Shown here: piece after piece, positions 5,595-34,245 of the stretch | Position numbering within the stretch: position 1 is the stretch's first letter | Layout: the number at the start of each line of letters is the position of its first letter | DNA from: Frankia sp. QA3 | GTDB lineage: Bacteria; Actinomycetota; Actinomycetes; Frankiales; Frankiaceae | DNA: 64,000 nucleotides | Direction: 5' to 3' | NCBI RefSeq assembly: GCF_000262465.1 | Contig: NZ_CM001489.1 | Coordinates: forward strand, 3,545,899 to 3,609,898 | Notes under the pieces: generated by a model | What the model saw: the letters and a program-made list of their open reading frames with translations, nothing else | Databases searched by the model: none | Told to the model about the DNA's origin: nothing | Translations under genes and position numbers: made by a program

Positions 5595-5642
5595 ATCCCC
5601 GCGTCCGGGGATCCCCGCGTTCAGGGATCCCAGCGTTCCGCA
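5595..5642. repeat. Three tandem 16-bp units between rpmA and obg
   Basis: Units begin at 5595, 5611 and 5627 and read ATCCCCGCGTCCGGGG, ATCCCCGCGTTCAGGG and ATCCCAGCGTTCCGCA, so they are close but not identical copies. They lie in the obg leader, about 100 bp upstream of the obg start. Confidence 0.8.
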
Positions 5643-5656
5643 CCGCGGCACATGCC

Positions 5657-5698
5657 AAAACCGCGCGCACCAAACCCGAAGCGGGATGATGCGCGCGG
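5657..5698 (-). terminator. Intrinsic terminator after rplU-rpmA
   Basis: Read on the minus strand, CCGCGCGC (5698-5691) pairs with GCGCGCGG (5668-5661), with an inner CCC/GGG stem in the loop. It is followed directly by TTTT (5660-5657). It lies 86 bp beyond the rpmA stop and before obg. A hairpin with a U-run is rare in such GC-rich DNA, so this is a good candidate for at least partial termination between the ribosomal genes and obg. Confidence 0.6.
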
Positions 5699-28731: not shown

Positions 28732-30198
28732 TCAGATGTCGCGGTCCCCGCTGTCGCTCGTGGCGGTCGCCGCCGGGGCCTGGGCCGGCTCCGCCGCGGC
28801 CTCCCCGTCGGCGTGGTCGTGGCCGTCGTGGTCGTGGTCGGCGTGGTCGTGGTCGTCGTCGGCCTCGTCGGCGTCCGGCGCCGGGCGGGCCGGCAGCGCC
28901 AGCTCCACCGGGTTGCCCTCCCCGTCGACGACCTTCGCGTTCTCCAGCAGCAGGAACAGCGCCTTGGTCCGCAGGACGTCGGCCATCAGCGCCTGCAGCC
29001 CCTCGCCCTGGGCGAGCTGCTGGGCGTAGACGTCGGGCTGCAGGCCCGAGCGCTGGGCGCGCAGAATCACCTGCTCCATGAGCTCGCCCTGGTCGATGCC
29101 GATCGACTCGACGTCGATGACCGCGTCGAGGATGAACTGGGAACGGATCGCCTTGCCCGCGGTCTCGCGGACCTCGGCGTCGAACTCCTCGGCGCTCTGA
29201 CCGAGCGTCTCGAGGTAGGTCGCGCGGTCGGTGCCGATGTGCTCCAGCTCGTGGGACAACCGGTGCTCACGGGCCTCGATCTCGCCCTCGAGCAGGGAGT
29301 CCGGGACAGGCACCTCGACCCGCTCCAGCAGGCTCTCCAGCAGCTTCTCCCGGGCCTGCCCGACCTGCTCGGTGCGCCGCGACTGCTCCAGCCGCGTGCG
29401 CACGTCGGCGCGCAGCTCGTCGAGCGTGTCGAACTCGCTGGCAGTGGTGGCGAAGTCGTCGTCGAGGGCGGGGAGCTCCTTCTCCTTGACCCCGCGCACC
29501 GTCGCGGTCACCTCGGCCTGCTGGCCCGCCTGGTCGCCGGCCAGCAGCTCCGTGGTGAACGTGCGGGACTCACCGTCGGTGGCGCCGACGATCGCCTCGT
29601 CCAGACCCTCGATGAGATTGCCGCTGCCGACCTCGTAGGACAGCCCCGTGGCCTCGGCCCCCTCGATCGGCTTGCCGTCGGCCTGCGCGGACAGGTCGAG
29701 CGAGACGAAGTCGCCCGTCTGCACCGCCCGCTCGACCGGCTGGAGCTGCGCGAACCGGTCCCGAAGCGCGCCGAGCTGCTCCTCGACCTGCTCGTCGGTG
29801 ACCTCGACGGCGTCGACCGTGACCGACAGGTCGGAGAACTCCGGCAGTACCACCTCGGGACGGACGTCCACCTCGGCGGTGAACACGAGCTGGCCGCCGT
29901 CGGCGAACTCGGTGATGTCCACCTCGGGGCGCGACAGCACGTCCACCTCCTCGGCCTGCACGGCCTCGGAGTACAGCTGCGGCAGCGCCTCCTGGACTGC
30001 CTCGTCCAGGATCACTCCGCGCCCGAGGCGCTGGTCGAGGATCCGCGGCGGGACCTTGCCCGGCCGGAAGCCGGAGACACGGACCTGGCGGGCGAGCTTG
30101 CGGTAGGTGGCGTCGAGCGAGGGCTTGAGCTCGTCGAAGGGCACCTCGACGGTGAGCTTGACCCGGGTCGGGCTGAGGGTCTCCTTGGTGGCCTTCAC
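28732..30198 (-). CDS. tig: Trigger factor, with His/Asp-rich tail
   Basis: Ribosome-associated chaperone and peptidyl-prolyl isomerase. The 488-residue product starts at GTG 30198. The ribosome-binding signature GFRPGKVPPRI lies near residue 44. An FKBP-type domain follows (GDFVSLDLSAQADGKPIEGA) and then the long helical C-terminal arms. The last ~60 residues form an acidic tail with DHDHADHDHDGHDHADG, which looks able to bind metal. It is preceded 55 bp upstream by tRNA-Pro on the same strand and followed by a 19-bp hairpin. Confidence 0.96.
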   Translation of the reverse strand: MKATKETLSPTRVKLTVEVPFDELKPSLDATYRKLARQVRVSGFRPGKVPPRILDQRLGRGVILDEAVQEALPQLYSEAVQAEEVDVLSRPEVDITEFADGGQLVFTAEVDVRPEVVLPEFSDLSVTVDAVEVTDEQVEEQLGALRDRFAQLQPVERAVQTGDFVSLDLSAQADGKPIEGAEATGLSYEVGSGNLIEGLDEAIVGATDGESRTFTTELLAGDQAGQQAEVTATVRGVKEKELPALDDDFATTASEFDTLDELRADVRTRLEQSRRTEQVGQAREKLLESLLERVEVPVPDSLLEGEIEAREHRLSHELEHIGTDRATYLETLGQSAEEFDAEVRETAGKAIRSQFILDAVIDVESIGIDQGELMEQVILRAQRSGLQPDVYAQQLAQGEGLQALMADVLRTKALFLLLENAKVVDGEGNPVELALPARPAPDADEADDDHDHADHDHDGHDHADGEAAAEPAQAPAATATSDSGDRDI

Positions 30199-32780: not shown

Positions 32781-32849
32781 CGCCGTCGCAGAAGTAGCCG
32801 TTCAGCCGGCGCACCAGCCACGCTGCCCGGGAGCAACGGGGGTCAGCGC

Positions 32850-32887
32850 GATGGTGCCGGCCGTCGACACTGACGACCGGCACCATC
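32850..32887 (+). terminator. Terminator after methyltransferase gene
   Basis: GATGGTGCCGGCCGTC (32850-32865) and GACGACCGGCACCATC (32872-32887) form a 16-bp stem with one mismatch and a 6-base loop, 70 bp after the stop. Confidence 0.65.
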
Positions 32888-33040
32888 TCCCAGACCCGGA
32901 CGAGCGGCAGGCCCACCCGGCGGCCGGGGTGTCGCCGGCCCGCTGATGGGTTCCCGACCGGCAGGTCACCGGGGTGCGATCAGCTCACCGTCAGCCGGTT
33001 GGCGCTCCACCGACCGGAGCAACCTGGCGCGACGGCCGCG

Positions 33041-33520
33041 TCACCACTCCCGGTCGTCGCGCCACTCCCGGTCGTCGTCCTTCCACCTGTCCTCGTGCTT
33101 GTCGTCATCGAACCAGTCGTCCTTGTGCCGGTCGTGCTTGAACCAGTCGTCCTTGTGCCGGTCGTGCTTGAACCAGTCGTCCTTGTGCCGGTCGTGCTTA
33201 CGCCAGTGGTCCTTGTGCCGGTCGTGCTTACGCCAGTCGTCCTTGTGCCGGTCGTCCTTGTGCCAATCGTCCTTACGCCAGTCATCCTTGCGCTTGTCAC
33301 CGAACCAGTCGTCATCGAACCAGTCGTCCTTGTGACGGTCGTGCTTACGCCAGTCATCCTTGTGACGGTCATCCTTGCGCCAATCGTCGCCGCCCCAGTG
33401 CTGGGCCTGCTTGACCGTGTCCCCACCGTCGGACGCCCAGGCACTCGAAGCCGCTGGTCCCAGCGCGACGAAAATGGTCGCCATGCTCGACAGCGCGACC
33501 ACTGCCGCCCGGGTCCTCAT
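33041..33520 (-). CDS. Secreted His/Lys/Asp/Trp decapeptide-repeat protein
   Basis: Not a family I recognise. ATG 33520, preceded by GGAG, gives 159 residues; a GTG four codons earlier is also possible. It starts MRTRAAVVALSSMATIFVAL, a standard signal peptide ending at an AWA-SD site. Nearly all of the mature part (~127 residues) is built from variants of HKDDWRKHDR and HKDDWFKHDR. It has about 15 tryptophans and is dominated by D, H, K, R and W; no cysteine occurs in it. The density of His and Asp suggests metal or polyanion binding, which is inference. It stands alone on the minus strand with a less GC-rich upstream region. Confidence 0.8.
   Translation of the reverse strand: MRTRAAVVALSSMATIFVALGPAASSAWASDGGDTVKQAQHWGGDDWRKDDRHKDDWRKHDRHKDDWFDDDWFGDKRKDDWRKDDWHKDDRHKDDWRKHDRHKDHWRKHDRHKDDWFKHDRHKDDWFKHDRHKDDWFDDDKHEDRWKDDDREWRDDREW
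33121..33270. repeat. Five tandem 30-bp units (decapeptide repeat)
   Basis: Units start at 33121, 33151, 33181, 33211 and 33241; the first two are identical and the others differ at a few positions. More degenerate copies extend to about 33390 and toward 33100. Each 30-bp unit encodes one ten-residue repeat on the minus strand. Confidence 0.9.
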
Positions 33521-33894
33521 TGATCTCCGCACAGTTCTCCCCTACGGTTTCGGAAAAGCAACCAACCAAGGTCACGAGAAAGCCTATCCGGCCTGCCGCG
33601 GACCGCAAATCCAGCCACTCACCCTCGGTTTTATTCACGTTTCATCCCGCGTTTCCTCGCGCTCGCCACTCATGACCGAAGAATCACCGGAAAGAGATTT
33701 CGACGACTTGGCCCCGCGGTGCACGGTCGGGCCCGGGCGGGGTGCGACGGGCGTGGCGCGGCCATCCGCCGGGATCGGCCGGCATGCCCCGGTCCGCCGG
33801 GAGCAACCGGCGCCCGCCACGGGGCCACACCGGCCCGCGTGGGCGCACCCGCCCCTCCGACTACACAAAGTAATCGACAGAGGGCCGAGGGGGT
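33521..33894. other. Divergent upstream region with lower GC
   Basis: 374 bp upstream of the repeat-protein gene. About 33530-33690 is visibly less GC-rich than the surroundings (runs such as GGTTTCGGAAAAGC and TTTTATTCACG), fitting a promoter region and perhaps acquired DNA. I could not assign a clear -10/-35 pair. No credible gene. Confidence 0.45.
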
Positions 33895-34245
33895 TTGGAT
33901 GCGCAGCACCAATACGGGCCGCCCGCCAACGCCGGGCCTCGGCGCCGCCGGCCCGGGCAACGCGTCCCCCGGCCGTTACCGGCGCTCGAGTTCTACCTCA
34001 CCGAACTGCTGCGACCCGCGGATCCGACCGGGCCGTGGGGCCCGTACGCCTTCGGCCTGTCGGGCTTCTCGGACGTGATTACCCAGTTCAACGGCGCCAA
34101 CGGGCTCATCGGGCTGCACGGCGTGAACCGTCCCGACCTGGTCGGGACGGACGCCAGCCACGGATGCATCCGACTACGCAACGCCGACATCGAAAAGCTG
34201 GCGGGAATCCTCCCCATCGGCACGCCGATCTCCATCAGGGGGTGA
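33895..34245 (+). pseudogene. C-terminal remnant of an L,D-transpeptidase (YkuD)
   Basis: The last ~85 residues match the end of a YkuD catalytic domain: FYLTELLRPADPTGPWGPYA, FGLSGFSD, GLIGLHGVNRP and the active-site block TDASHGCIRLRNADI, with the catalytic cysteine present. The first half of the domain, and any signal or substrate-binding part, is missing. The first ~30 residues (from a TTG at 33895) are Pro/Arg-rich with no similarity, and no other frame upstream supplies the lost part. I read it as a 5'-truncated gene; a short active fragment is unlikely. Confidence 0.6.

Follow-up and report, generated by a model that had tools for sequence, protein, structure and literature searches.

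CotG-type spore-coat proteins carry low-complexity charged repeats and diatom cingulins are Lys/Trp-rich, both being secreted or coat proteins; their repeat units differ from the pentad described below for Frankia. Pentapeptide repeat proteins of the A(D/N)Lxx type form a beta-helix with a period of five and have D before the central residue. Unlike these, the Frankia proteins are without a confident predicted fold and without a Pfam match (none at E ≤ 0.1 for the protein of strain QA3 and none at E ≤ 0.01 for any of 17 members, hence no pentapeptide-repeat or ChpA-C match). Extracellular disordered proteins of bacteria have been little studied. Chaplins and rodlins are small secreted proteins on actinobacterial hyphae, a site comparable to the one proposed here (PMC4255298); they are amphipathic and assemble at interfaces, whereas the Frankia chain is polar with 0–8% aliphatic residues. 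A chaplin search of the QA3 genome gave no match, but the control genomes gave none either. In Brucella, the operon encoding the MxKDx protein BcrX adds to HOCl resistance, and the BcrX homologue of Azospira is described as a sacrificial HOCl scavenger acting through its own oxidation (PMC8315932). The Frankia protein resembles this MrpX/BcrX type in being a small exported pentad protein with K-D at unit positions 3 and 4, and differs from it by Trp (or Lys/Arg) at the anchor, the lack of Met, the mostly Trp-rich C-terminus and an occurrence, here, only in Frankiaceae.

The gene is encoded in the 7,590,853 bp genome of Frankia sp. QA3 and was analysed in a window of 64,000 nucleotides (G000:C1:3545899-3609898), which is the whole stretch of DNA that all positions below refer to. 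Where labels are needed, G000 stands for QA3, G005 for Frankia alni ACN14a, G010 for F. casuarinae CcI3, G017 for EuI1c and G024 for DC12 (PMC9956245). The gene and its product comprise the following features:

33041 to 33532, minus strand: coding sequence of an exported WxKD(D/G) pentad-repeat protein of 163 aa, with a GTG start and an alternative ATG at 33520
33434 to 33532, minus strand: Sec-type signal peptide (residues 1–33), cleavage predicted between AWA and SD (AxA rule, by eye)
33044 to 33397, minus strand: pentad/decad repeat region of the mature chain, ending in Trp (from TRF, the periodicity test and the C-termini)

The initial annotation had placed the frame at 33520-33041 on the minus strand, running from an ATG to the stop codon (159 aa) and encoding a signal peptide followed by HKDDW/RKHDR-type repeats. 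This frame was found as described, with the exception of its start, which is most likely the GTG at 33532, 12 nt upstream of the ATG. The codon four residues above the ATG is GTG or ATG in 19/19 members of the family and follows a purine-rich GGGGGAA-type site, and a Met at the place of ATG 33520 is retained in 10/19; the gene was therefore taken as 33532-33041, encoding 163 aa. As the pattern used for collecting the members demanded Met or Val at the start, the independent evidence in this comparison consists of the choice of GTG among the Val codons and the ribosome-binding site. The signal-like N-terminus was similar in all 19 members (judged by eye).

The pentad-repeat gene looks real, judging from the relatives, which preserve the pattern while the letters change. 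The pN/pS ratio was 0.47 in frame and reached 1.56 and 1.01 in the two other sense frames (nine Frankia genomes, codons 2 to 44–51, a stretch made up largely of the signal peptide with the first repeats), and the third-position GC of the mature part ranged from 0.84 to 0.97 among the 19 members. Over the QA3 array, two frames on the plus strand and a shifted one on the minus strand are open as well; they were taken as by-products of the repeat, the antisense frames having been compared for stops only, with several open in relatives too. Loss of the frame despite conserved DNA, which had been named as evidence against the gene, was not observed: an open family-A frame is present in 12 of 13 genomes of the same genus, and this count per genome is the test, since the 19 members had been gathered as open frames. 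In the 13th genome (G006), the gene is absent from the locus, where the methyltransferase frame stops at 5608 and the YkuD gene begins near 5696, so that the roughly 87 bp between these neighbours leave no room for it. Judged by position, a single TGA reported in four of the family matches is either the stop codon of the protein itself or situated immediately behind it. Relatively AT-rich DNA lies upstream, as the initial annotation stated, the kilobase 33001-34000 having a GC content of 0.665, the second lowest of the 64 one-kb bins.

The repeat was detected by TRF as an array at 33089-33388 with a period of 30 nt, 10.1 copies, 79% matches and a sub-period of 15 nt. Eleven of the 14 gaps between neighbouring Trp residues in QA3 measure 5 or 10 residues (shuffle mean 1.6, maximum 7; 2000 shuffles), as do 167 of 266 in all 19 members. 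This spacing was significant in 16/19 members, beating all 2000 shuffles in ten of them and being equalled by no more than 10 of the 2000 in the other six, and it was not significant in G008, G010 and G034 (2000 shuffles each). The consensus around the 285 Trp of the 19 members, K(-3) D(-2) D/G(-1) W x K(+2) D(+3) D/G(+4) W(+5), reads (W-x-K-D-D/G)n. The decapeptide put forward as the repeat unit in the initial annotation thus gives way, family-wide, to the pentad W-x-K-D-(D/G) of five residues. At the anchor of the [x]-x-K-[DHN] units (total 285, 19 members), W was counted 139, K 44, D 31, R 29 and G 16 times, besides others, i.e. Trp is replaced mainly by Lys or Arg (73/285). The QA3 anchor is W eight times, R eight times and K and D once each, and Trp and Arg pentads accordingly take turns in the decapeptide of this strain; in CcI3 the anchor is never W.

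From residue 35 onwards, the QA3 chain (129 residues) consists of W15 D43 E3 K20 R17 H16 G5 F5 and five others, in agreement with the 15 Trp, the many His and Asp and the absence of Cys noted before. Freedom from Cys is not general, as 5/19 members carry one to seven. A Trp is located within the last four residues in 18/19 members, and W-x-W (x = D, N, E or G) within the last eight in 16/19; the latter is absent from the C-terminus of QA3 (ending REW), G003 and G004. What is conserved is Trp, Lys and Asp together with the signal peptide and the ribosome-binding site, and copy number and letters drift. W-x-K crosslinks are known from streptide/triceptide-type RiPPs. A RiPP precursor with such crosslinks was rejected on account of the Sec-type signal and because no radical-SAM protein was found among the eight window proteins scanned.

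By their position relative to the charge-hydropathy line, the dividing line used for disorder, all 19 members plot as disordered. Their net charge per residue lies between -0.13 and +0.03 at a charged fraction of 0.44–0.71, and the charges are well mixed, kappa (own implementation, approximate maximum) being below the shuffled mean in 19/19 and below all 40 shuffles in 10/19. AlphaFold2 gave no confident fold, neither for the QA3 chain alone (pLDDT 55.9, low-confidence helices in the second half, chiefly at 94–135) nor when ten of the 19 members were supplied as an alignment of 10 rows (pLDDT 46.0, no DSSP elements). We infer disorder in solution, self-association, a location on the hypha and the role discussed below.

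Two further features flank the coding sequence:

33533 to 33617, minus strand: 5' leader, a possible promoter region with ribosome-binding site (from the upstream alignment)
32838 to 32898, no strand assigned: hairpin between the convergent methyltransferase gene and the repeat gene (from folding energy and a palindrome in relatives)

Among 12 aligned upstream regions, nine are clearly alike, and those of G001, G008 and G010 are alike only at the ribosome-binding site; a sigma-70 promoter scan found none. On the minus strand, the hairpin folds with -46.9 kcal/mol (z -7.1), and on the plus strand with -39.8 kcal/mol (z -5.5). It is very stable, is not followed by a U-run and is matched as a palindrome in several relatives, e.g. 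G002, G009 and G011, which makes it likely to be a shared bidirectional terminator. The single Rfam match, on this hairpin, was at chance level. With its own leader and its own hairpin, the repeat gene is probably a transcription unit of its own.

The explanation favoured here, with a probability of roughly 0.4, is that the disordered Trp/Lys/Asp polyampholyte serves as an extracellular coat or matrix protein on the hyphae. A stand-alone gene would give rise to a small exported polyampholyte (W-x-K-D-D/G)n with some Trp swapped for Arg or Lys, in which the Trp rings would pair with Lys/Arg (cation-pi) and positive with negative charges, and many such disordered chains would gather on the hyphal wall into a water-rich, reversible condensate. 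The physics of polyampholytes is general knowledge, applied here to the repeat protein. It is the combination of Trp with Lys/Arg and of balanced charges, suited to weak multivalent self-association, for which a hyphal coat or matrix is favoured, and the shared export signal and start site, the 5/10 spacing, the charge mixing, the lack of a confident fold and the Lys/Arg substitution speak for it. Since composition, spacing and ends would matter more than sequence, copy number and letters would be free to drift. Selection indeed seems to act on composition, spacing and charge balance, and for the most part on the ends, rather than on the exact letters, a conservation pattern typical of disordered proteins acting in bulk. 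Against a coat, none of the neighbour genes points to one, the terminal W-x-W that most members conserve may point to a particular partner, Asp at the anchor (31/285) suits cation-pi pairing less well, and three members (G008, G010 and G034) are without significant spacing. The Trp content of the chains, 10–19% with pentad spacing, is costly and unusual and has been kept by evolution. The 19 natural sequences form a series for probing the sticker-spacer rules of condensates, and the protein offers an entry point to the surface of Frankia, a nitrogen-fixing soil bacterium that grows as filaments.

A sacrificial extracellular oxidant sink of the MrpX/BcrX kind, with Trp oxidised in place of Met, is the main rival, possible if doubtful; should it prove right, the MxKDx principle would reach beyond Met to a second residue. 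Besides the precedents of BcrX and its Azospira homologue (PMC8315932), it draws on the NCBIfam model TIGR02953 (pentapeptide MXKDX repeat), which is matched by 10/17 members at E ≤ 0.01. When three matching members were shuffled with their composition preserved, none of the nine resulting sequences matched at E ≤ 10, so the similarity depends on the pentad order. The order x-x-K-D-x of the model is found family-wide, less regularly in QA3, and an export signal is present (by eye); on the other side, the anchor Met is lacking and all matches stay below the cut-off of 41 bits (the highest scores being 27.7 bits for proteins and 28.6 bits for genomes), with none for the QA3 protein at E ≤ 10. 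The earlier statement that no family with this repeat is known thus stands for Pfam and for QA3's own protein, and needs qualification for those 10 members with their sub-threshold matches to the MxKDx model. In 34 Frankiaceae genomes, seven places in six genomes were found at E ≤ 0.001, three on the repeat gene (G009, G025 and G031) and four on other repeats, and no genome passes the cut-off. Four matches at E ≤ 1e-5 among 396 genomes of the phylum, none over the cut-off, read as M-x-E-D, M-T-Q-P and T-E-D repeats and not as Trp pentads, and were rejected as relatives.

The mature chains are free of Met in 19/19 members, so that the MsrPQ repair cycle cannot apply, and oxidised Trp is not known to have a reductase, which also counts against an oxidant sink. 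No MsrPQ/YedYZ gene was found among the neighbours identified in the window and the syntenic loci; two Oxidored_molyb genes are located elsewhere in the QA3 genome. Rather unlikely is a combination of both functions, i.e. a secreted Trp polyampholyte, possibly from an MxKDx-like ancestor, that would form a condensate-like shield both coating the hypha and absorbing oxidants; it would then be a bacterial sticker-and-spacer material, Trp standing at every fifth or tenth residue.

Metal or polyphosphate binding through regularly spaced His and Asp, as suggested in the initial annotation, is improbable. The QA3 chain is rich in both residues (16 His and 43 Asp of 129), and Frankia EuI1c is recorded as tolerating copper through binding at its surface (from a title cited in PMC4531530). 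However, His makes up 78 of 1983 residues over the 19 members (0–16 per chain, with 16 in QA3 and 0–8 in the other 18), and conserved, regularly spaced His are absent. The abundant His is a feature of QA3 that is not conserved, which leaves the metal idea weak; moreover, Asp is largely balanced by Lys/Arg, and no metal gene was found among the neighbours identified.

The distribution was followed with a whole-chain profile (A1) built from 17 of the 19 members, G008 and G013 being left out. At E ≤ 1e-5, it matches 26 of the 35 genomes in the family, which was taken to be Frankiaceae because of its named members; the 17 genomes from which the profile members came match by construction. The true family was read in 24/35 genomes, namely in 12/13 of g1, 6/6 of g2 and 6/8 of g6; as for the other g6 genomes, the one of two G032 matches that was read belongs to another paralogue group and G027 had no frame after the filter. 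No match at E ≤ 1e-5 was obtained in g3 (5/5 genomes) or in g4, g5 and g7 (one genome each). Searches at E ≤ 10 of G006, the five g3 genomes and g5 gave only matches with E ≥ 0.0015. The best G006 match at this threshold is a paralogue from the anchored Asp-Lys group described below, and G023 has seven matches. Among the relatives, a direct scan named Frankia gtarii, F. torreyi CpI1, F. tisae and strains AiPs1 and AiPa1.

Of the 393 genomes in the class sample, 27 have a match (best 10 candidates per genome), namely 26 Frankiaceae and one of 358 others (G167). The protein of the latter (L103) is a short exported W/D/H/N-rich repeat protein without K-D pentads, for which reason it was taken as probably convergent. 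A second profile (A2; mature chain, 10 members) matched one of 396 phylum genomes, QA3 itself. No match was found in plasmids at E ≤ 1e-3, in the PDB at E ≤ 0.1 or in PHROGs at E ≤ 1.

In the Frankia secretome study, 52 Frankia-specific core secreted proteins were reported, as defined by reciprocal matching among three strains (E 1e-20), and the accessible text does not mention a Trp-Lys-Asp repeat (PMC2266912). Nor is it mentioned in the accessible text of PMC8951365, PMC5768760, PMC10520049, PMC10252897, PMC11093716, PMC4531530 and PMC9956245; within text of the same scope, no protein or transcript evidence for the repeat gene was found. Literature searches returned no published Trp-Lys-Asp pentad family and no paper naming FRAAL190, the ACN14a locus tag being estimated as FRAAL190x from folC (FRAAL1914 at 2,074,787).

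That the protein acts as a symbiosis effector or as a signal to the host plant is very improbable in view of this distribution. The protein is exported, Frankiaceae-specific in the samples searched and present in QA3, ACN14a and CcI3. Against such a role, it is also present in the cluster IV strains EuI1c and DC12 and is thus not tied to efficient symbiosis; cluster 4 has been called non-infective (PMC10252897), though EuI1c is able to form nodules according to a title cited in PMC9956245. Furthermore, no match at E ≤ 1e-5 was obtained in G006, which appears to fit the in-planta sporulating 'Candidatus F. nodulisporulans' AgTrS (PMC9956245), or in the five g3 genomes, which may be symbiotic cluster II.

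Several other exported repeat proteins were noticed during these searches. L041, L042/L091, L109, L111 and L143, all from Frankiaceae, are Asp-Lys-rich and have a hydrophobic, Arg-tipped C-terminal anchor after P-(I/L/V)-A-G; they are possibly wall- or membrane-anchored. A paralogue-like group (G000:C1:5024293-5024649, L108, L110 and L097) contains, twice, a Lys-rich block that terminates in (R/S)V-x-WF, with DDHKKW- or DHDKGK-type repeats following in QA3 and G003. L019, L025 and L027 form a third exported group with Trp repeats, rich in Arg/Gln/Asn instead of Lys/Asp, and two of the three end in GGIVR.

The gene order in QA3 is ClpP, trigger factor, methyltransferase, repeat gene (on the opposite strand), YkuD L,D-transpeptidase (Ldt), DUF3291, DHO dehydrogenase and glycosyltransferase. 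All or part of this order is kept at the locus in G002, G005, G008, G009, G010, G011 and G012. The methyltransferase gene had no match in the stretches read for G002 and G009, and none of these neighbours was found in those read for G003, G004, G007 (3.6 kb only), G019, G025 and G034. A function based on an operon was rejected, since the neighbours vary among genomes and the gene is probably its own unit, so that they say little about its role. The divergent neighbour is the following:

33895 to 34245, plus strand: shortened YkuD L,D-transpeptidase gene, a candidate only for a functional link to the repeat gene

A substrate fixed to peptidoglycan via its Lys side chains by this transpeptidase is hardly credible: both genes adjoin in G000, G005, G008, G009, G011 and G012, but the CcI3 locus has the repeat gene without an Ldt match, the Ldt gene of G001 and G006 adjoins the methyltransferase gene with no repeat gene between them, the Ldt is shortened in QA3, and the repeat gene is located elsewhere in G003, G004, G019, G025 and G034.

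The YkuD gene of QA3 aligns to the G006 protein over the C-terminal 88 aa only, with an internal stretch of several hundred bases missing; the frames are longer elsewhere (334 aa from stop to stop in ACN14a, 287 aa in F. torreyi). The trigger factor encoded elsewhere in the window (28732-30198, minus strand) carries a long His/Asp-rich C-terminal tail (HDHADHDHDGHDHADGEA...).
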